Assembly: GCA_024639325.1 (NCBI GenBank)
Contig: JAHEIO010000030.1
Coordinates: 1-39,680, forward strand
Length of the DNA stretch: 39,680 nucleotides
Reading direction: 5' to 3'
Source of the DNA: Gammaproteobacteria bacterium
GTDB taxonomy: Bacteria; Pseudomonadota; Gammaproteobacteria; Arenicellales; JAANXG01
Both the position numbers and the translations under genes were made by a program. Below the pieces are notes generated by a model. That model had not been told where the DNA came from. It did not search any database and was given only the letters and a program-made list of their open reading frames with translations. Of the stretch, positions 2,854 to 12,379 are shown piece by piece (positions within the stretch are counted from its first letter, which is position 1; every line of letters starts with the position of its first letter).

Positions 2854-3681
2854 TCAGGGCAGTATGTTATCGAATTCTTCCTGTAGCTGATCGAAGCCGC
2901 CGTACTCGAGACGGTAACCCGGCGTGTCGCGTGCCAGCCGCGCCGCTTCGTCGAAGCCGTGACCGTTGAGGTTGCGCGCATTCACCAGCGATTCCATCAA
3001 TGCGAGCCCGGACTTCGCTTTGGTTAGTTTTTCCAGCTTGAGGTCGGAATTTTTTATGAACCTGGGGAACAGTATCAAGTCGACCGTCGGGTTTTCCTGT
3101 ATGTTTTCGGGGTTCAACAGACGGAAAGGGATCATTGCGACATGTTTGCCCTGGATGGTCTGGTCTTCGTGTTTGTCCATGTCGAAAAAATGCTCCAGCG
3201 CCGCTTCGATGCCCCTTACCTTGACATTGGGTGGCCGCGCGAATGCCTGCATCGTGTTCGCGTTATGCCGGATGAATACGTACTCGTCGGTCAGATAGTT
3301 GAAGCCCCGTGCAGCCAGCCAGGTGCTGAGCGAGGTCTTTCCGCTGCCGCTTTGTCCCGGGATCAGTATGCCCCTGCTGTTTCTTGACAATGCCGCAGCA
3401 TGCAATGCCATGCCGTCCGCGTTTCGATCGATGAGTTGATGGATCGTCTCGCGAATCAGCGTCGTTGCCAGTGCTGAATTCTCGTTGCCCCGATACAATT
3501 GTTTATCACCGCAATGCAAAGTTAGTTCGCCGTCCTCCTCGCGTACGCTCAGGGTGGCATCCGGAGAATCCGACGGATCGGCATTGGTGTCGCCGTATAG
3601 AAATTCGATCAGTTCCGAGAAATCGGGGCTGTACTCGATGGATAAACTTTGGCCTGCGAAATTGACGTAGCGTGTTTTCAA
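2854..3681 (-). CDS. HprK-like serine-kinase-fold ATPase
   Basis: 275 residues related to the catalytic domain of HPr kinase/phosphorylase. The P-loop GQSGSGKT is at residues 109-116, preceded by the HAAAL segment (His94) seen in HprK relatives and followed by a Walker-B-like LTDEYVFI near 130-137. The family N-terminal DRTGG-like domain of true HprK is absent. The first 90 residues are a small domain of unknown role. HprK-like kinases next to PqqD-like proteins are known from peptide-modification and HPr-rel cassettes, where the target is not HPr. The gene is the last of a minus-strand set, 12 bp after the PqqD-like gene. I infer it phosphorylates a small molecule, peptide or neighbouring protein; the target is unknown. 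No hairpin with a T-run follows it. Confidence 0.85.
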   Translation of the reverse strand: MKTRYVNFAGQSLSIEYSPDFSELIEFLYGDTNADPSDSPDATLSVREEDGELTLHCGDKQLYRGNENSALATTLIRETIHQLIDRNADGMALHAAALSRNSRGILIPGQSGSGKTSLSTWLAARGFNYLTDEYVFIRHNANTMQAFARPPNVKVRGIEAALEHFFDMDKHEDQTIQGKHVAMIPFRLLNPENIQENPTVDLILFPRFIKNSDLKLEKLTKAKSGLALMESLVNARNLNGHGFDEAARLARDTPGYRLEYGGFDQLQEEFDNILP

Positions 3682-3693
3682 TATCGTGTGAAC

Positions 3694-3963
3694 CTATAAA
3701 GTTATCGCACCGTGATCGCTGAACATTTGCAGCGTTGCCTCGACGTCTTTCTCGACTCCGCTATCGGCCTCGGGATAAGAATCCTTGATCAGGCTTATGA
3801 TCTCGTTGACCGTGCGTTCACCATCGCAAAGCCGCCATATGATTGATGCGGTCTGGTTCATATACACGGTGGTCGTCTTGGCCGGGTGATAGAGCAGTAG
3901 CTCGTTGTCCAGCTCCTCGAGGGTGAACTCTTTGTCGGGCAGGGGTACGCTGTTGGCATCCAT
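3694..3963 (-). CDS. PqqD-like peptide-binding chaperone
   Basis: 89 residues with the PqqD/RRE fold pattern: an N-terminal beta segment, then LYHPAKTTTVYMNQTASIIWRL matching the family's LNETAALIW core in layout, then DGERTVNEIISLI and a C-terminal helix. In PqqD and related RiPP systems this winged-helix domain holds the leader of a precursor peptide and presents it to the modifying enzyme. The gene sits between a degenerate ABC transporter and an HprK-like kinase, so the three probably form one transcript. No radical-SAM enzyme, cyclase or convincing precursor gene is near. It may instead recruit a protein partner. The ATG at 3963 has only a weak ribosome binding site, and a 14-codon minigene lies just upstream. 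Confidence 0.82.
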   Translation of the reverse strand: MDANSVPLPDKEFTLEELDNELLLYHPAKTTTVYMNQTASIIWRLCDGERTVNEIISLIKDSYPEADSGVEKDVEATLQMFSDHGAITL

Positions 3964-4062: not shown

Positions 4063-6738
4063 CTACTCCGCCCGCAGCAGATTCTGCAATGCGCCCCCGG
4101 ACGCACTCAGTTCATCGGCCCGGCCCTGCTCGATGACCCTGCCGTGTTCGAGCACGATTGTGTGTTCGAACTTCCGGGCAAGCTCCACACTGCTCAATGC
4201 GGCTATCAATCCCTTGCCGGCCATGTGTTCGATTAGGTTATCGATCATCTTGTTTTCCGCGGCGGGGTCCAAAGGACTGGTGGCGTCATTCAGGATGAGT
4301 ACATCGGGATTTTTTATCAAACCTCGGGCGATCGCAAGCTTCTGACGCTGCACCAGCGAAAGGCGCGAACCACCTATGCCGACCTCGAACTCCAGGCCGG
4401 CTTTCATGATGTCCCGTCGCAGTCCCATCGATTCTACCGTCTCCCGGATGAGTTCTCCGACGCGAGCCTGCGCGCGCGCCTTGCCGTACGCGAGGCGTCC
4501 GAACAGGATGTTGTCCTGTATCGTGATTGCGTGATTGAACTTCTCGAGGTCGAAGAAACTGACATATTCGTTGTTATCTCCGAGTTCGCCGTGGAGGGCT
4601 GCACGAGCGCTAACCAGGCGCTCCATCATGGAGTCGTCAATGAGCCCCAGGCGATGGCGGGCGGGAATGAGTTTGAACGGCAGCGACAGCAGCGAGACAC
4701 GATCCTCTCCTTTGAGGTCTTCCAGCTGGCTCTCCTCGGTGCGGTTCAATAGGCCGTGGAACATGGACAGATCGTCCGCGCTGATGAAGCTGAACTGCTC
4801 GAACAATTCACTGTCTGACGGGACGTCGGTAAACAAATCGAGCATCACATCCGCGATCTTTCGACCGATGCTCAGGAGCTCCGGGATCAATCCACACTGT
4901 TCGAGCACGGTTATGATCTGCGGATTTTTTGACAGGTTCTCGACATCGAATGACGGATCAATCGCGGTCCCGAACAGCAGGTTTTCCGCCACCGACATGT
5001 TGGTGTTGTAGTGTTCGCGGTCGAAAAATTCGACGAGGTCTTTCATCCCGGGATCGGAAAGTCGTTCGTGCAGAGCTTGCCGGGCTTCCAGGACGCAATT
5101 GGTCAGAGCGGTGTGGCTTTCATTTTTCGCAATGGTTCCGTTCAGCCCAAGCTTGTAAATATCATCCTCGAGACCGGTAACCTTGAATACTTCGAAAACC
5201 CGTTGGACGAGCTTCGCGTCGTCTTCTACGCCGGCGGCGTCGTAGTCGATCCAATCCGCGTCGACGTCGTCGGTGCTGGTTCCGGAGGCCCGCGCTTCTT
5301 TCAAATCCCGCCTGCGTTGTTTTGTCCGCTCTTCGTCGTAATCGGGTTCGATGAGCGGGCGGTGCTTGAGGCCGTAAAGAACGTTGTCCATGACCGTGCC
5401 GGCAAATATATGTGCGTTCGGTCCGACGTAAGCAGTTCTCCTTCCCAGCACCGCCTCGGGCATTTCGCTCAGGTTTTTGTCATTGATGATCAAGCGGCCC
5501 GCGGTAGGGAAGATCAATCTGGCAACCAATCTGATTACCTCGTCCGTGCCGCTGCCGGTGACGCCAACAGCGCTGGTGTGGTTGCCCAGATCGAGGCGAA
5601 AGCTTGCGCCATCGACCAGCTTCACCACCTGGTCCTCGGTGTAACTCAGATTATTTGAGAGCAACGTGCCTTTGACCGGTTCTATGTTTTCCGGGGCCTC
5701 GTTCTGCAGCTCGAGCCGCAGCATGTTCTCGGGCTGAAACTGTTCGATTATCTGGGCATATTTGACGCGGACGTCTTCCGTGATCTGGTAGAACTTCAGC
5801 AGTTCGCTCCAAGGCGGACCGATGTCCTTGTAGGCCGCCAGCACGGCAACCAGTGCGCCCAGCGACAGATCGCCCACGATGACGAAATAGCCGCCTACCG
5901 CATAGAAAAAAAAGGGCGTCAGCTGGCCCAGAAAATTGTTGAGGAACTTGATGAAGAACTTGCGCTGGTAGATCTCAAAACGAATGTCGTAAATGGTGCC
6001 GAGCTTCTGCGAGATTTTCGCCCGCTCGAAGAAGGAGGTATCGTTTGCGTGGATCTCCGTGATTCCCGAAACCGATTCACCGACGCCGTCCGCGAGTTTG
6101 CGCACCGTCTGTACTCGCTGTTTTGCCAGGACGTTGACCTTCTTCTGCAGTTTGGGTATGACATATATCTGGATCGGGTAGAGGGAAATGGCCGCCAGCC
6201 CCAGCCAGGGATCCTGGACGAATATGAATGACAAATATGTCAGCAGCAGCCCGCCTTGGAATGCGGGCAAGGCAAATGCATCGCCGATGAAGCCGCCCAG
6301 TGGTTCCGTTTCGGCAGTGATCATGGGAATGATTTCTGCCTGTGAAAGGCGCTTGAAGTGCGGCAGTGGAAAGCGGAGGATCCTGCTGTACAGCTCGAAC
6401 CGGAACCGCCGCAGCATGCGTTCACCAAGAACCCCGCGATAAACGTTGATAACGTATTTCAGGCCGCCGCCCACCAGCACCAGAGCGAGATAGAAGAAAG
6501 ACAGGGCGAGCAGATAGGAAATCTGATCGACCTCGAAACCCAGAATGTCCTCGGGTAGGTTTACACCGCCGATCGCCTCGTTGATGATGATCTTGGGAAT
6601 CTCGAGGGTGATATATACCAGCGGCATGGATAGTACCGTCAGCAGGAAGAGATATATCTGGTCTTTAGAGGTGTGCTTCAGGATGTACCGGTATATCGAA
6701 GGATCCAGTACATCCTGTCCGGCCGGATTCTTAGACAT
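4063..6738 (-). CDS. ABC exporter-like protein with degenerate, expanded ATPase domain
   Basis: 891 residues, much longer than the ~600 of a normal exporter half-transporter. Residues 1-330 form an ABC type-1 membrane domain with about six hydrophobic segments (near 29-50, 74-98, 155-175, 178-196, 265-302). An ATPase-like domain follows. Its Walker A at 392-399 is GVTGSGTD, with T and D where K and S/T belong. The signature at 793-797 is LSLVQ instead of LSGGQ. The Walker B region LILND ends in Ala819 where the catalytic Glu belongs, and the H-loop position reads SS (849-850). Between the two halves is an insert of roughly 330 residues in which a unit of about 40 residues is duplicated (551-590 and 710-747). 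It probably acts in the inner membrane as a scaffold, or as a transporter that does not hydrolyse ATP in the usual way. It leads the operon with the PqqD-like and HprK-like genes. Confidence 0.85.
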   Translation of the reverse strand: MSKNPAGQDVLDPSIYRYILKHTSKDQIYLFLLTVLSMPLVYITLEIPKIIINEAIGGVNLPEDILGFEVDQISYLLALSFFYLALVLVGGGLKYVINVYRGVLGERMLRRFRFELYSRILRFPLPHFKRLSQAEIIPMITAETEPLGGFIGDAFALPAFQGGLLLTYLSFIFVQDPWLGLAAISLYPIQIYVIPKLQKKVNVLAKQRVQTVRKLADGVGESVSGITEIHANDTSFFERAKISQKLGTIYDIRFEIYQRKFFIKFLNNFLGQLTPFFFYAVGGYFVIVGDLSLGALVAVLAAYKDIGPPWSELLKFYQITEDVRVKYAQIIEQFQPENMLRLELQNEAPENIEPVKGTLLSNNLSYTEDQVVKLVDGASFRLDLGNHTSAVGVTGSGTDEVIRLVARLIFPTAGRLIINDKNLSEMPEAVLGRRTAYVGPNAHIFAGTVMDNVLYGLKHRPLIEPDYDEERTKQRRRDLKEARASGTSTDDVDADWIDYDAAGVEDDAKLVQRVFEVFKVTGLEDDIYKLGLNGTIAKNESHTALTNCVLEARQALHERLSDPGMKDLVEFFDREHYNTNMSVAENLLFGTAIDPSFDVENLSKNPQIITVLEQCGLIPELLSIGRKIADVMLDLFTDVPSDSELFEQFSFISADDLSMFHGLLNRTEESQLEDLKGEDRVSLLSLPFKLIPARHRLGLIDDSMMERLVSARAALHGELGDNNEYVSFFDLEKFNHAITIQDNILFGRLAYGKARAQARVGELIRETVESMGLRRDIMKAGLEFEVGIGGSRLSLVQRQKLAIARGLIKNPDVLILNDATSPLDPAAENKMIDNLIEHMAGKGLIAALSSVELARKFEHTIVLEHGRVIEQGRADELSASGGALQNLLRAE

Positions 6739-6794: not shown

Positions 6795-8099
6795 TTGTTA
6801 CATGATGCTCACAGCGGCTCGAATATGGAACCATCGCAACAGAGTGTAACCGTAGTCGTCAAAGGTTACCCTCGTTTGTCCGAGACCTTTATCGCGCAGG
6901 AGATATACGCTTTGCAGTGCCGCGGACTCAGGATGCGAATCGCCTCTCTGCGACGACCCACGGACCCCGCGTCACATCCAGTGCATGCGGAAATTCATGC
7001 ACCGATTCTGTACCTGCCGGAGTACCTGTATGAGGACCCTCGGCGGGTGCTTAGCGCCTGGCGATGGTGCCGCCGCAGGAAAGGCTACCGGGTCGCACGC
7101 AACGCCTGGCTGTCGGATTTGTCGAAGGACCCCACGCCGAACCGTGTGCGCCGTTTTGGCCAGGCGCTGGTTTTGTCGGCGGAACTGCCCGACGATGTCG
7201 GCTTTCTCTATGCGCATTTCCTTCATACACCGGCATCGGTGACGCGCTATGCCAGTTTGATGTCGCAGATTCCTTGGGCCTGCTCGGCACATGCAAAAGA
7301 TATCTGGACGACGCCTGAATGGGAAAAAAGACAAAAACTCCGAGAGTGCCGGTGGCTGGTAACCTGTACCGCCGCGAACCTCGACCACCTGCGATCTATC
7401 TCCGACGACCCTGGGAAGGCAAGCCTGGTTTACCATGGTCTCGATTTCGGTCGTTTCGACGACCCGGGCCCGCCCGTTGAATCAGTGGTATCAAGTGGGC
7501 ATGCTGCCGGCCCGGTTGAGATCGTCTCCGTCGGGCGCGCGGTTGAGAAGAAAGGGTATGGGGATCTGCTCGAGGCGCTGTCCAGATTGCCGCGAGACCT
7601 GGACTGGCGTCTCGTGCACATCGGCGGGGGAGCACTAATCAACCGGCTGCGGAGCGCCGCCGGAACTCTGGGCATTTCGGACCGGATCCAATGGCGCGGA
7701 CCTCAGCCGCACGATGAAGTCCTGCGTGCTTATCGCGCTGCCGATATTTTCGTGCTGTCGTGCAGGGTCGCCGAAGACGGTGACCGGGACGGGCTGCCCA
7801 ACGTCCTGCTCGAAGCGCAAAGCCAGAGGCTGCCATGCGTTTCTACCCGCATCTCCGGCATTCCCGAACTCGTAGAAGACGGCGTTACCGGTTTGCTGGT
7901 CGCACATAAAGACCCCGACTCCCTTGCGCGCGCGCTCCAATCGCTTGTCGAGAACCCCGAATTGCGTAAGCGCCTAGGCCAGGCGGGGTTCGAGCGCGTG
8001 CGCGAACGATTTTCCCTGACCAAGGGTATTGATACACTCGTCCGAATGTTCCCGGAATCCGTGCTCCCCGTTGAAGATCGCATATTACGCACCGCTTAA
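6795..8099 (+). CDS. GT4 family glycosyltransferase (ExoL/WcaL-like)
   Basis: About 424-434 residues with the GT-B fold: an N-terminal VTVVVKGYPRLSETFIAQEI typical of ExoL/WcaL/AmsK-type exopolysaccharide glycosyltransferases, the central VSVGRAVEKKGYGDLLEAL of the donor domain, and the DGLPNVLLEA nucleotide-sugar motif, where Asp replaces the first Glu of EX7E. It would add a sugar to a lipid-linked or other acceptor at the cytoplasmic face of the membrane. The start is uncertain. TTG at 6795 has AGGA nine bases upstream; ATG at 6825 has no clear ribosome binding site but places the conserved N-terminus closer to the start. It is divergent from the ABC gene (56 bp) and overlaps the next glycosyltransferase by 29 bp, pointing to translational coupling. 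Confidence 0.9.
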   Translation: MLHDAHSGSNMEPSQQSVTVVVKGYPRLSETFIAQEIYALQCRGLRMRIASLRRPTDPASHPVHAEIHAPILYLPEYLYEDPRRVLSAWRWCRRRKGYRVARNAWLSDLSKDPTPNRVRRFGQALVLSAELPDDVGFLYAHFLHTPASVTRYASLMSQIPWACSAHAKDIWTTPEWEKRQKLRECRWLVTCTAANLDHLRSISDDPGKASLVYHGLDFGRFDDPGPPVESVVSSGHAAGPVEIVSVGRAVEKKGYGDLLEALSRLPRDLDWRLVHIGGGALINRLRSAAGTLGISDRIQWRGPQPHDEVLRAYRAADIFVLSCRVAEDGDRDGLPNVLLEAQSQRLPCVSTRISGIPELVEDGVTGLLVAHKDPDSLARALQSLVENPELRKRLGQAGFERVRERFSLTKGIDTLVRMFPESVLPVEDRILRTA

Positions 8100-9198
8100 G
8101 TCTCCACTCCACTACCGCCCTTCCGGAGATCGCCTGGTCGCCAGGCTTTTCCAAAAATCAATCGAGGACGGTGGTTTCGATGTAGAGCTGGCCAGTGAGT
8201 TCAGATCGTGGGAGGGGGAGGGAGATCCGGAACGTCAGCAACAAATGCGGGAAACAGGGACCGAACTTGCCCATCGATTGGTCAGGGAGTATTCCGCCCC
8301 CGATAGCCAACCCGCACTCTGGTTTACCTACCATGTCTACCACAAGGCGCCGGACTGGATCGGCCCGGTCGTGTGTTCAAGCCTGAAGATCCCATACGTC
8401 ATCGCTGAAGCGTCTTTTGCCCCCAAACAGATTAACGGGCCATGGCATATCGGGCACGAGCAGTGCCGGGCGTGTATTCACTCGGCCGATGCGGTGATCA
8501 GTTTGAACCGGCAGGACGATCCCTGCCTTCGGGGCGTTTTGAAGCCGTCTTGTGAACTGGTTGAATTGAAGCCGTTTATCTCGCTTGAAGGCATTGACAC
8601 GATATCTGCTGACCGCGCGCAGGTGGCGCAAAGGTGGGGGGTGGCGGCTGATACGCCGTGGCTCGTTTGCGTGGCAATGATGCGTGAAGGGGACAAGCTT
8701 GCTTCATATCGCGAACTGGCCCAAACGCTGACCCTGGTGGAACAGGACAGCTGGCACTTGCTGATGATAGGTGACGGCCCCGCCAGGCAACGGATATCGA
8801 ACCTGTTCAAGCCGTTTGCGTCTCGTACGACGGAAACGGGGCTTTTGTCACGACAAGAAATCTACACCGTTTTGAGATCCAGTGACCTTTATGTCTGGCC
8901 GGCTGTCAACGAGGCATATGGCATGGCACTGCTCGAGGCGCAAGCCTGCGGTTTGCCGGTGGTGGCATCAGCGGTCGGGGGCATCCCGCAGATCGTTGCG
9001 CATGGAACTACGGGTCTGTTGGCACCGTCGAATGACACGCAAACGCTGAGTCGGTACATTCGCGAATTTATTCACAATCCGGATCTGGGGAAGAAAATGG
9101 GTGCGCGCGCACAAGAAAAATGCATGAGAGAGCACAATATTCATCACGCCACGACCGTCCAGGCAGAACTTTTTTCCAGGCTTATCGACAAAGCATGA
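8071..9198 (+). CDS. GT4 family glycosyltransferase
   Basis: 375-residue GT-B glycosyltransferase. The donor-binding EX7E motif is intact in NEAYGMALLEAQACGLPVVAS, followed by GGIPQIV and the LLAPSND loop. The frame is open from TTG 8029, but I chose TTG at 8071 because it begins MKIAYYAPLKSP, and many members of this group begin M(R/K)IAYYAPLK followed by a PSGDR-like loop, seen here as RPSGDR. There is no clear ribosome binding site; the 29-bp overlap with the upstream glycosyltransferase suggests coupled translation. The next gene starts on its stop codon (ATGA). Sugar donor and acceptor are unknown. Confidence 0.88.
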   Translation: MKIAYYAPLKSPLHYRPSGDRLVARLFQKSIEDGGFDVELASEFRSWEGEGDPERQQQMRETGTELAHRLVREYSAPDSQPALWFTYHVYHKAPDWIGPVVCSSLKIPYVIAEASFAPKQINGPWHIGHEQCRACIHSADAVISLNRQDDPCLRGVLKPSCELVELKPFISLEGIDTISADRAQVAQRWGVAADTPWLVCVAMMREGDKLASYRELAQTLTLVEQDSWHLLMIGDGPARQRISNLFKPFASRTTETGLLSRQEIYTVLRSSDLYVWPAVNEAYGMALLEAQACGLPVVASAVGGIPQIVAHGTTGLLAPSNDTQTLSRYIREFIHNPDLGKKMGARAQEKCMREHNIHHATTVQAELFSRLIDKA

Positions 9199-9776
9199 CT
9201 TATTTCGTAATGGTTCGGCACGGTCGTACTGAATGGAACGCGGCGGGCCGAATACAGGGACACACCGATGTTCCGCTCTCTGAAGAGGGCCGGAGGCAGG
9301 TCAGCAGACAGAGAATTCCCGGCCACTACAAAAATGCCAGATGGGTGAGCAGTCCGCTGGTGCGTGCCGTTCAGACGGCGCAATTGATGGGCTGCAGTGA
9401 TCCCGAGTTGGAACGGGCGTTGATGGAGATGAACTGGGGTGAATGGGAAGGCCTGACGCTGTCGGATTTGCGGCAAAGGCATCGGAATGCGATGCGGCAC
9501 AATGAGGACCGCGGTCTGGACTTCAGGCCCACGGGTGGAGAGAGCCCGCGGGATGTTCAGGAGCGCGTGATGGAATGGATGGGAAAGAAGGTCGACGCGT
9601 CGACGCCGGTCGTAGCCGTAACTCACAAGGGCGTGATTCGCGCGACGCTGAGCAAAGCCACCGGCTGGGACATGATCGGTCCGCCCCCCCTGGTGCTCGA
9701 CTGGACCTGTGCGCATGTGTTTTCGATGGATGAAAACAAATTTCTGAAGCTGTCCATGGCTAATGTCCCGTTGTAG
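9195..9776 (+). CDS. Histidine phosphatase (RHG) family protein
   Basis: 193-residue member of the phosphoglycerate-mutase-like phosphatases, with the phospho-accepting VRHGRTEWN near the N-terminus, the RAVQTAQ segment, the general acid region MNWGEWEG and the second catalytic histidine in AVTHKGVIRA. The start at 9195 overlaps the stop of the preceding glycosyltransferase as ATGA; the longer frame from 9120 overlaps that gene and lacks similarity. Relatives of this size (CobC, GpmB, PhoE types) remove phosphate from sugar phosphates or cofactors. Because it closes a glycosyltransferase operon, dephosphorylation of a sugar phosphate or glycosylated intermediate is a reasonable inference; removal of a phosphate placed by the nearby HprK-like kinase is possible but untested. 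Confidence 0.9.
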   Translation: MTYFVMVRHGRTEWNAAGRIQGHTDVPLSEEGRRQVSRQRIPGHYKNARWVSSPLVRAVQTAQLMGCSDPELERALMEMNWGEWEGLTLSDLRQRHRNAMRHNEDRGLDFRPTGGESPRDVQERVMEWMGKKVDASTPVVAVTHKGVIRATLSKATGWDMIGPPPLVLDWTCAHVFSMDENKFLKLSMANVPL

Positions 9777-9865: not shown

Positions 9866-10492
9866 TCAGCTGCAGGAACTTTGCAATAGTGCGATCTGTT
9901 TTCGCATGTTGTCCCTCGCCGGTGCCTCCAATTGTGCCTTGAAAAACTCCGTGGAGTACACGCTCGGCCTGTCCAAAAGCATCCGCAGGAATCCGATGTT
10001 TTTTTGCGCAAACTCCCGATCGCTCATTGCCGGAAACTCGTTTCTCACTTTGCGACTGTCTATCACAAACTCGTTCCAGGGAAGCCCGAAGCTCGACAGA
10101 TCGATATCGACGACGTATTGCTCGTCAGGCACCTGCGGAGCGTAGTCATGGATCGTCGCCATGATCAGGCGACAAACCTGCTCCACGAGGTCATCGCTCA
10201 TCATTCCCGTGGCGCTTCTTTTGAATCGCTCCGCGCTTTCCTGCTCGTTGTTGGGGGATTGCGGGTCGTACTCGACATCGTGGAACCACAACGCAAGTTC
10301 AATGGCGTTTGCATCTTCCATTGAATCGCGCGCGCGATCGAACTGCCGCAGACAGTGTTCGATATGGGCGCCGGTATGGTAGTGGCGATGCGGTTCGCTA
10401 TAGCTGTCTTCGATACCCATGAACAGGGCATCCGCCGAATCTCTGCGCCCGCAACACCGGGACCAGAGCGCGACGAACCTGTCCTGATCCAT
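9866..10492 (-). CDS. HD-domain protein, predicted metal-dependent phosphohydrolase (COG4339 type)
   Basis: 208 residues with the pattern of the COG4339 family of small HD proteins: RHYHTGAHIEHCL near residues 36-48 and LALWFHDVEYD near 66-76, giving the His...His-Asp metal ligands, with a further HDY near residue 114. Members are cytoplasmic and their substrates are poorly known, though nucleotides or phosphoesters are likely for the superfamily. It is the third gene of a minus-strand set behind a MurG-like glycosyltransferase and a cNMP-binding-domain protein, 16 bp after the latter. It converges with the histidine phosphatase gene (89 bp between them, no clear terminator). The pairing with a cNMP-binding domain hints at a nucleotide-related role, which is only inference. 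Confidence 0.85.
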   Translation of the reverse strand: MDQDRFVALWSRCCGRRDSADALFMGIEDSYSEPHRHYHTGAHIEHCLRQFDRARDSMEDANAIELALWFHDVEYDPQSPNNEQESAERFKRSATGMMSDDLVEQVCRLIMATIHDYAPQVPDEQYVVDIDLSSFGLPWNEFVIDSRKVRNEFPAMSDREFAQKNIGFLRMLLDRPSVYSTEFFKAQLEAPARDNMRKQIALLQSSCS

Positions 10493-10508: not shown

Positions 10509-11000
10509 CTACTCAGAGTCTCCGACTTCCTCGAGCCGGTTTTGCAGACGCTCTATCTCCTGGCTGAGGTTTTGCATCATGTTCGTGGATTCGGCCAGTT
10601 TGAGGCTCAACTGACGCATCACGTCCAGCGCGACTTCCGGGCTGTTGGACAGCAGTTTCAAAAAAGCATCGTTTGATATTCGCAGGGTACGGACAGGGCC
10701 CTTGGCACGCAGCGTAGCCGATCGGGGTAAATTGGTAAGGACCGCCATTTCCCCGATTATTTCATTCTTACCCCGGGTTACCACGGGCACCATGCCCTCG
10801 TCCGTCTCCACCAGGATCTCGACTTCTCCGGACATGATCACGTAAGCGCTGTCCGACGGATCGTTGATGTGGAACAGAATGTCCTGATCGTGAAATTCCA
10901 CCGCTTCGCTGGTAAATGCCATCAGCTTGAGCTTGGATGCCCCGAGTCTCGAGAACATCGGAACTTTTTTCAGTTCCTCGGCTTCCTGGTACAGATCCAC
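10509..11000 (-). CDS. Cyclic-nucleotide-binding domain protein with C-terminal coiled coil
   Basis: 163 residues from a GTG start. A single Crp-type beta-roll occupies most of the chain (PMFSRLGASKLKLMAF, then the FHINDPSDSAYVIMSGEVEILVE strands, then the phosphate-binding-cassette-like IIGEMAVLTNLPRSATLRA). After it comes a helical tail (about the last 35 residues, LKLAESTNMMQNLSQEIERL) with heptad-like spacing, and no helix-turn-helix. It is therefore not a Crp/Fnr transcription factor; it resembles sensor or scaffold proteins that bind cNMP and dimerise. The cassette carries GEMAVLTNLPRSAT, close to the GELALLxxxPRxAT consensus, so nucleotide binding is possible. The frame extends to TTG 11069; I prefer GTG 11000, which gives VDLYQEAEELKKVPMF as the natural N-terminus. 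Confidence 0.82.
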   Translation of the reverse strand: MDLYQEAEELKKVPMFSRLGASKLKLMAFTSEAVEFHDQDILFHINDPSDSAYVIMSGEVEILVETDEGMVPVVTRGKNEIIGEMAVLTNLPRSATLRAKGPVRTLRISNDAFLKLLSNSPEVALDVMRQLSLKLAESTNMMQNLSQEIERLQNRLEEVGDSE

Positions 11001-11086
11001 AGTTCGCGCTGACCCTGTCTTAAGTGAGTACTGTTGATTAAGACTGACACGCAATGAAAAGCAAATCAAGGCGAACTGTCCGGAAT

Positions 11087-12307
11087 TCAGGTAGCGCGCT
11101 GGGCGACCATCGAAGTTGGTGAGTACTGTTTCTCCAGGAGGTGTTTTACGCGCTGGTGAACAGTGGTTAGCCCGTCCAGGATGCCTCCGATATTCGCTTC
11201 ACTTGGCAGAGGTTGGTCTGGCAGTCGCCTGAGTGCGACAGCCATTGTTTTCCAGTCGCGCGGACCGTCACCATCCAGCATCTTCACCAAGCCAAGCTCC
11301 TGAGCGTGCCGCGCCCTGATCAGCTGCTCCTTGCGGGGGGTCGAACGGGGCACCAGCAGCGCGCGCTTGTTCAGGGAAAGAATTTCGCAGAACGTGTTGT
11401 ACCCGCCCATGGCAACGATACTGTCTGCATGCAGCATGAGCACTTCGATATGGCTCTCGAAGGTGAGCACCGTTACGTTGTCAAGCCGCTCGATGCGCTC
11501 ACGAAATTCATGCTGATCCGACGCCGACATGAATGGTCCCAGAACGATCACCGCTTTTTGATCCAGACCGGCATCGTGCTCATAGGCGCGAATTATCCAA
11601 TCGATCATCGTCGCACCGTCTCCGCCTCCGCCGGCGGTCACCAGAATGTACGGCTTGTCAAGCGATATGGGCTGGGTCAAGGAAGCATCATGCGGCACGT
11701 AGCGCGGCAGGTATCCCGTATATATGGTTTTGTCGCGGACCTCTGCGGGCACGTCTATTCCCTTCATAGTGTCCCCCATGAGCGGCACTCCGTATATCCA
11801 GATCTCGCTGTAAAGATCCCTGAGCGCGGGCATTGCCTTTTTACGTTCCCATTCTTCACGTAATTCCCTCGGGGCATCCATGACGTCGCGCAGACCCAGC
11901 ACGTTGTGAACCCCGCGCCCCTTGAGCATGGCCAGGGTCTCGCCTACTTCCCCGCGCAGGCCCACGGGTTCCTTGTCCACCAGGAACAGATCGGGAGAAA
12001 ACATGTCGGCTGTGTGGCGGATGATCGATGAGCGCAGGGCGAGCGTGTCGTCGAGATCGATGTGCAGTCCCAGGGAGGTGTATTCCCCATTGTGGAGTTT
12101 GATCACGCCCGGTATGCGCACGAAATCGACGCGCGCGCGAAAGTCGAAGCTGCCTATGATGGGTGACCCCGACAGTATGAGAACGCTCAATCCCTTGTAG
12201 CGATCGACGAGATCGTGTGCGATGGCCCGGCATCGCCTCAAATGCCCCAACCCGAATGAGTCGTGGCTGTAGATCAGTATTCGGGCGCCATCCAGGCGTT
12301 CTGTCAT
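11087..12307 (-). CDS. MurG-like glycosyltransferase, COG4671 type
   Basis: 406 residues. The N-terminus ILIYSHDSFGLGHLRRCRAIA is the hallmark of COG4671 predicted glycosyltransferases, GT-B enzymes distantly related to MurG/GT28. The C-terminal half contains the glycine-rich LVTAGGGGDGATM donor loop and MGGYNTFCEILSLNKRALLVPR, matching the family's nucleotide-sugar site. ATG at 12307 is used because the frame upstream of it only offers a GTG at 12352 and carries no similarity. It heads the minus-strand group with the cNMP-binding and HD genes, and lies 72 bp after the ornithine cyclodeaminase-like gene on the same strand. As the third glycosyltransferase within 6 kb it supports a glycan or glycoconjugate role for this region. 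Confidence 0.85.
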   Translation of the reverse strand: MTERLDGARILIYSHDSFGLGHLRRCRAIAHDLVDRYKGLSVLILSGSPIIGSFDFRARVDFVRIPGVIKLHNGEYTSLGLHIDLDDTLALRSSIIRHTADMFSPDLFLVDKEPVGLRGEVGETLAMLKGRGVHNVLGLRDVMDAPRELREEWERKKAMPALRDLYSEIWIYGVPLMGDTMKGIDVPAEVRDKTIYTGYLPRYVPHDASLTQPISLDKPYILVTAGGGGDGATMIDWIIRAYEHDAGLDQKAVIVLGPFMSASDQHEFRERIERLDNVTVLTFESHIEVLMLHADSIVAMGGYNTFCEILSLNKRALLVPRSTPRKEQLIRARHAQELGLVKMLDGDGPRDWKTMAVALRRLPDQPLPSEANIGGILDGLTTVHQRVKHLLEKQYSPTSMVAQRAT

Positions 12308-12379
12308 CGGGGGTTTTGTGCTATCACATGCCGCTGACCGCTCAGGGTACACCAGAAATGCCGCATTTAGCAGTCCCGG

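Follow-up and report, generated by a model that had tools for sequence, protein, structure and literature searches.

Transport driven by ATP is what defines an ABC exporter, and the gene at positions 4063–6738 (minus strand) of the window, by which we mean the whole 39,680-nucleotide stretch of gammaproteobacterial DNA analysed here, raises the question of what becomes of an exporter when the residues of its ATPase are missing. An earlier note on this DNA had described the gene (hereafter referred to as ABC*) as encoding an ABC protein with degraded ATPase motifs and a partly duplicated insert in its nucleotide-binding domain (NBD), perhaps driven by an HprK-like ATPase.

An exporter fold with degenerate ATPase motifs and an enlarged NBD

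The reading frame encodes 891 aa on the minus strand (the earlier note had named no strand), and its extent, the positions of the GVTGSGTD, RLSLVQR and DNVLYG motifs and both repeat ends proved to be as previously described. Pfam identifies an exporter membrane domain (ABC_membrane, 7e-18) followed by an ABC_tran NBD (1.2e-10) detected in two separated pieces, and with both domains above cut-off the protein qualifies as a type-IV ABC exporter fold. The membrane domain (residues 10–340; 5719–6711, minus strand) is conserved more strongly across the family than any other part and holds most of its invariant columns. The AlphaFold model of the full protein (pLDDT 84.6) aligns over residues 12–891 with BmrA, MsbA and ABCB1 at VIA-align Z scores of about 29–30.

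To fix the motif columns, ABC* was aligned with three canonical exporters encoded in the window's own genome, in which ten of ten motif positions are intact. ABC* retains only two of the ten, against 9–10 in controls, and does not qualify as a functional ABC ATPase: it has neither the Lys nor the Ser/Thr of Walker A, and its Q-loop has lost the Gln, its signature the Gly-Gly pair, its Walker B motif the Asp and its H-loop the His. On the minus strand, Walker A reads GVTGSGTD (residues 392–399; 5542–5565), with Lys replaced by Thr and Ser/Thr by Asp; the Q-loop region is AYVGPNAHIFAG (436–447; 5398–5433), the signature RLSLVQR (792–798; 4345–4365) and the Walker B/catalytic pair LILNDA (814–819; 4282–4299), and the H-loop column is occupied by Ser849 (4192–4194). 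The absence of the H-loop His had been recognized earlier. The Q-loop segment persists as previously claimed, but its Gln column is Pro440, and the Walker B motif is indeed degenerate, but in another register: the alignment with the same-genome exporters places Asn817 in the Walker B Asp column and Asp818 in that of the catalytic Glu, so that the reported "Asp818 then Ala" is an ordinary DEATSALD with DE changed to ND. Judged by these motifs, ATP incompetence of ABC* is a well-supported prediction.

The gap before the signature is as unusually long as had been noticed, with 393 residues between Walker A and signature against 96–101 in the control exporters (some 295 extra). It contains a conserved insert (approximately residues 457–735; 4534–5370, minus strand), for which AlphaFold modelling of residues 457–742 alone gave a pLDDT of 92.5, and three repeat units can be delimited in this part of the minus strand. 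Unit A (430–548; 5095–5451) includes TVMDNVLYG and the Q-loop strand that belongs to the NBD itself, unit B (549–700; 4639–5094), with SVAENLLFG, lies entirely within the insert, and unit C (701–792; 4363–4638), with TIQDNILFG, runs into the signature helix; the corresponding motifs are DNVLYG at 451–456, VEFFDREHYNTNMSVAENLLFG at 569–590 and SFFDLEKFNHAITIQDNILFG at 727–747. Profile-profile comparison with hhalign scored 91.4 for B–C, 39.4 for A–C and 34.1 for A–B, values reached by none of 60 column shuffles each (maxima 22.6, 16.0 and 21.5, respectively), and the membrane domain, compared with the three units as a negative control, scored within noise. The canonical Q-loop-to-signature stretch of an NBD is itself matched by units A (55.3), C (36.2) and, more weakly, B (27.2), with null maxima of about 18. 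Since the units are related to each other and match this stretch, a normally single segment, the helical subdomain of the NBD, exists here as three diverged copies, which supports the earlier proposal that the insert expanded by duplication within the NBD, an uncommon way for a protein to become larger.

Several blocks of the insert (ADWIDY, SVAENLLFG, SFISADDLP, ARHRLGLID and QDNILFG) are conserved across proteobacterial classes. Pfam yielded no match to the insert common to more than one of 48 members, a PDB sequence search gave a best E of about 1, to the NBD of ABCG2, and a Foldseek search of PDB with the insert model alone returned nothing under E 0.7 and no NBD match. A VIA search produced a single row above Z 5, a weak match to BmrC 419–493 (Z 5.3) that is consistent with an NBD ancestry of the modelled insert. 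All 239 residues of the ComA NBD align with the full ABC* model (Z 30.9, rmsd 1.8), spread over residues 353–889, and ABC* is thus one NBD plus an insertion. A second complete NBD inside the insert, which the earlier note had named as an outcome that would count against its reading, is rejected by the ComA alignment, the insert model and the Foldseek search.

Spread and conservation of the ABC* family

More than 60 homologues in the alpha-, beta- and gammaproteobacteria share the ABC* architecture, with near full-length homologues at 32–96% identity. ABC* homologues were identified in 54 of 145 related genomes (E ≤ 1e-60) and in 32 of 398 genomes sampled from the phylum (E ≤ 1e-40), with further homologues in 22 loci from GTDB genomes and in 346 plasmid records, mostly from Rhizobium and Sinorhizobium, where they are annotated as "ABC transporter ATP-binding protein"; with the ATP-cycle residues missing from so large and conserved a family, many such annotations would be wrong. 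Whole-gene dN/dS was 0.05–0.26 in the eight pairs for which it could be computed and 0.02–0.18 in the membrane domain, with purifying selection in every domain. This selection, and an architecture retained across three proteobacterial classes, bear out the earlier view that ABC* is not a decaying pseudogene. A search of open-licence papers returned no description of the family, and ABC* is thus a widespread, conserved and undescribed family of bacterial membrane proteins, built as exporters, that has lost the ATP-burning parts.

The motif losses vary by lineage, but the full motif set is absent from every member. In an alignment of 51 sequences, the Walker A Lys is present in 21 and Ser/Thr in 10, the Walker B Asp in 11 (Asn in the other 40) and the catalytic Glu in 17. 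Across 70 members scored at ten motif positions, the best member retains six, ordinary exporters of the same genome retain 9–10, and none has a complete set. The pseudo-ATPase reading of the earlier note is therefore extended to the family, but its four losses are not the same throughout. A few relatives answer in part to the close homologues with both Walker motifs intact that the note had regarded as contrary evidence: L030 and L032 (~52% identity) retain GSGKS and DE but have no Gln in the Q-loop, no Gly-Gly in the signature and no His in the H-loop, and L077–L079 retain Walker A and Walker B with Glu in much the same way. L068 is the sole member with both signature glycines, but its H-loop His is absent, and no scored member combines this glycine pair with an intact H-loop. 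From their sequences, ATP binding and perhaps slow turnover are possible in relatives that keep Walker A and the Walker B Asp-Glu.

At the margins of the family, L093 and L099 (family f83) are very divergent: they resemble the other members more in the insert than in the membrane domain, and they retain almost no ATPase motif. ABC* is broken across two frames in L097/L132 and L050/L124, a possible frameshift or assembly error, and a putative neighbour cluster ("ABC*2") consisted of antisense shadow ORFs and was discarded. Relatives of about 400 aa comprising the membrane domain without any NBD occur at L090:7679-8920 (plus strand), L091:7540-8781 (minus strand) and L092:7531-8730 (plus strand), on long branches of the family tree. 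Those of L091 and L092 adjoin multicopper oxidase and cupredoxin genes and have an additional His-rich N-terminal region, and the 16-kb loci of these relatives contain no NBD-containing ORF (within ~8 kb). If these proteins are real relatives, the membrane domain is able to serve without an ATPase.

A cyclic-nucleotide-binding partner and its neighbourhood

Analysis of neighbouring genes, in which counts take in related genomes and ORF calling was mechanical, revealed that the constant associates of ABC* are GT4 and GT28-like glycosyltransferases, a histidine phosphatase and, above all, a cyclic-nucleotide-binding (cNMP) protein. In the window, Pfam and neighbour analysis identify two conserved GT4 glycosyltransferases (6795–8099 and 8029–9198, plus strand), a histidine phosphatase (9120–9776, plus strand), which is a frequent neighbour, and a conserved GT28-like glycosyltransferase (11087–12352, minus strand). 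The cNMP gene is separated from that of the phosphatase by a gene for a 208-aa protein (9866–10492, minus strand) that is conserved in this position in close relatives (cluster 13) and looks like an HD-type hydrolase, without a significant Pfam match.

The cNMP protein, which the earlier note had not linked to ABC*, is encoded at 10509–11069 (minus strand). Pfam detects PF00027 only (2.8e-19), with no HTH, and alignment of the ligand cassette GEMAVLTNLPRSAT shows GE...PRSAT to be intact, as in a Crp-type domain; across the family, the partner is a Crp-type protein of about 150 aa without a DNA-binding domain. Its gene follows immediately downstream of ABC*, in the same orientation, in 22 distinct loci (from 23 records, as L058 and L117 represent one genome), with the ABC* stop overlapping the cNMP gene start in L058, L111 and L118, and adjoins ABC* upstream in L050; the adjacency is also annotated in Rhizobium etli (RHE_RS24195/RHE_RS24190) and in Sinorhizobium. 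In at least 14 proteins (L096, L098, L113–L116, L120 and L125–L131) the cNMP domain is fused to the ABC* C-terminus; a quick tree needs two changes for these fusions, its starred branches force only one, and independent fusions are not claimed. In gammaproteobacteria the gene usually lies several genes away in the same cluster (~10 kb in G005, G008 and G009, for example), and in the window it is located ~3.8 kb from ABC*, with opposite-strand genes in between.

Among the 145 related genomes, 49 encode both ABC* and the partner, five ABC* only, four the partner only and 87 neither (Fisher p 6e-28, in a test that ignores kinship), and three of the five with ABC* only (G079, G082 and G088) carry the cNMP domain as a fusion. 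The ligand cassette is well conserved, with Gly in 44 of 44 sequences, Glu in 32 (Asp in eight) and Arg in 43; altered cassettes are found in three fused sequences and two separate partners. The partner may bind cAMP or cGMP, or possibly a different nucleotide, given that ppGpp is the ligand of the comparable HetC domain (PMC10986499).

Of 56 loci, 14, mostly from alphaproteobacteria, have nucleotide cyclase-domain genes near ABC*. On R. etli p42e and one Sinorhizobium plasmid, a single row of genes comprises a cyclase, an Opp-type transporter, glycosyltransferases, ABC* and the gene for the cNMP protein. Two Rhodobacteraceae loci (L055 and L057) contain no cNMP-binding gene within the ABC* locus; the cyclase-domain genes there number three, and both CHASE2 and 2Fe-2S types are among them. 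The genome of the window (4.7 Mb) encodes at least 16 class III nucleotide cyclase domains, which suggests heavy cyclic-nucleotide signalling. A metallo-beta-lactamase-fold hydrolase gene often directly follows the cNMP gene (L052:15459-16292, L054:11273, L101, L102, L109, L110 and L112), and its product could be a phosphodiesterase of the circuit. A role in anti-phage defence was considered and rejected: the PADLOC matches of the cNMP protein are to the cNMP domains of Pycsar effectors, and no Pycsar effector or cyclase neighbour was recognized in the window.

Possible modes of action and known systems

The explanation that we favour, with confidence somewhat above even, is that ABC* is a conserved pseudo-ABC exporter without an ATP-hydrolysis cycle, gated by nucleotide binding to the cNMP partner. 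ABC* would act as a homodimer, since it is the only family member found in the window genome. In exporters the helical subdomain is where an NBD usually couples to the membrane domain, and for this reason the enlarged helical subdomain of ABC* is proposed as the docking and lever surface for the partner. Binding of a second-messenger nucleotide to the partner would then shift the membrane domain between conformations; we infer this gating from co-occurrence and adjacency, which fall short of proof. The output would be a gated membrane protein instead of an ATP-driven pump: a regulator, a channel or a facilitated flippase that works for the glycosyltransferases encoded nearby, probably in relation to their product. 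If so, an exporter fold has been re-used as a membrane device under second-messenger control in culturable models such as Rhizobium etli. Counting against this explanation are the distance between the two genes in the window, the altered cassettes, the L055 and L057 loci in which no partner was found, and the relatives that keep Walker A and the Walker B Asp-Glu.

ABC* might still be an ATP-dependent exporter that binds ATP non-canonically and hydrolyses it slowly, the insert providing the missing contacts. The few relatives with GSGKS and the Walker B Asp-Glu, the well-kept Walker A glycines and the intact NBD fold all speak for this, but the signature Gly-Gly and H-loop His, which the ATP sandwich and hydrolysis require, are jointly intact in no member, and the window protein has in addition lost the Lys, Ser/Thr and Walker B Asp, making this explanation unlikely. 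We regard as quite unlikely a pure scaffold that transports nothing and serves to tether the glycosyltransferases or cNMP sensor to the membrane: it would account for the constant glycosyltransferase neighbours, the missing ATPase and a highly conserved membrane domain, but the conservation of that domain exceeds what anchoring needs, and the NBD-free versions sit in copper operons without these glycosyltransferases.

Power could also come from elsewhere. Opp-type importer genes with an intact ATPase neighbour ABC* in many loci, and ABC* could be the degenerate half of a heterodimer or of a complex borrowing, for instance, a YejF/OppDF-like double ATPase. This is improbable, because the Opp-type ATPases are encoded together with permeases and a binding protein of their own, the window gene and many others have no such genes nearby, and no locus encodes an intact exporter half of this family, which is represented by a single copy in the window genome. 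More improbable still is the driver suggested in the earlier note, in which an HprK-like kinase (2854–3681, minus strand) and a PqqD-like protein (3694–3963, minus strand) would form a working peptide-modification/export complex with ABC*. In the window, L038 and L045, all of one genus, the pair adjoins ABC* in the same orientation; outside this genus it is not found beside ABC*, although ABC* is widespread, and an HprK/PqqD-driven system is therefore not supported. Both proteins also fall below the curated HPr-rel-A cut-offs (95 vs 200 and 20 vs 35 bits for TIGR04352/TIGR04353).

Compared with known systems, the gated pseudo-exporter that we favour shares its membrane-domain and NBD folds with type-IV ABC exporters such as MsbA, Sav1866, BmrA and ABCB1, and differs from them in its lost ATPase motifs, some 295 extra residues, triplicated NBD segment and cNMP partner. 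Heterodimeric exporters (TM287/288, BmrCD, TmrAB and MsRv1273c/72c) also have a degenerate NBD but keep one catalytic site, whereas ABC* is single-copy, with no intact second half in the window or related loci; we reject this assignment, noting that a distant, unlinked partner half may exist. The HprK-related kinase A system is weakly matched by the window's HprK-like and PqqD-like proteins, but that pair is not conserved with ABC*. The ABC* system resembles HetC of Nostoc PCC 7120, in which an exporter fold and a Crp-type ligand domain are likewise combined. In HetC the cNMP domain is N-terminal and binds ppGpp, and the protein also has a C39 peptidase and an ATPase that is essential (PMC10986499), whereas the cNMP domain of ABC* is C-terminal or separate; a HetC/PCAT-type exporter was rejected on the absence of a peptidase domain in the Pfam scan and the loss of complete ATPase motifs. 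ABC* likewise scores far below cut-off as an NHLP bacteriocin exporter (TIGR03796, 172 vs 853 bits), as does the partner as its cyclic-nucleotide protein (TIGR03896, 36.6 vs 161 bits). In SUR and CFTR (ABCC8/9 and ABCC7), eukaryotic ABCC proteins that retain nucleotide-binding sites, the exporter fold is reused as a channel regulator or a channel. A similar logic in ABC*, whereby an exporter fold abandoned ATP hydrolysis and is opened or closed by a second messenger through a Crp-type domain coupled by the triplicated helical subdomain, is a tentative idea, in our judgement rather less probable than not, which if true would place such a device in Rhizobium, Sinorhizobium, roseobacters and many gammaproteobacteria. 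The likeness is a works-like analogy only, with control of ABC* proposed to run via a separate cNMP-binding domain.
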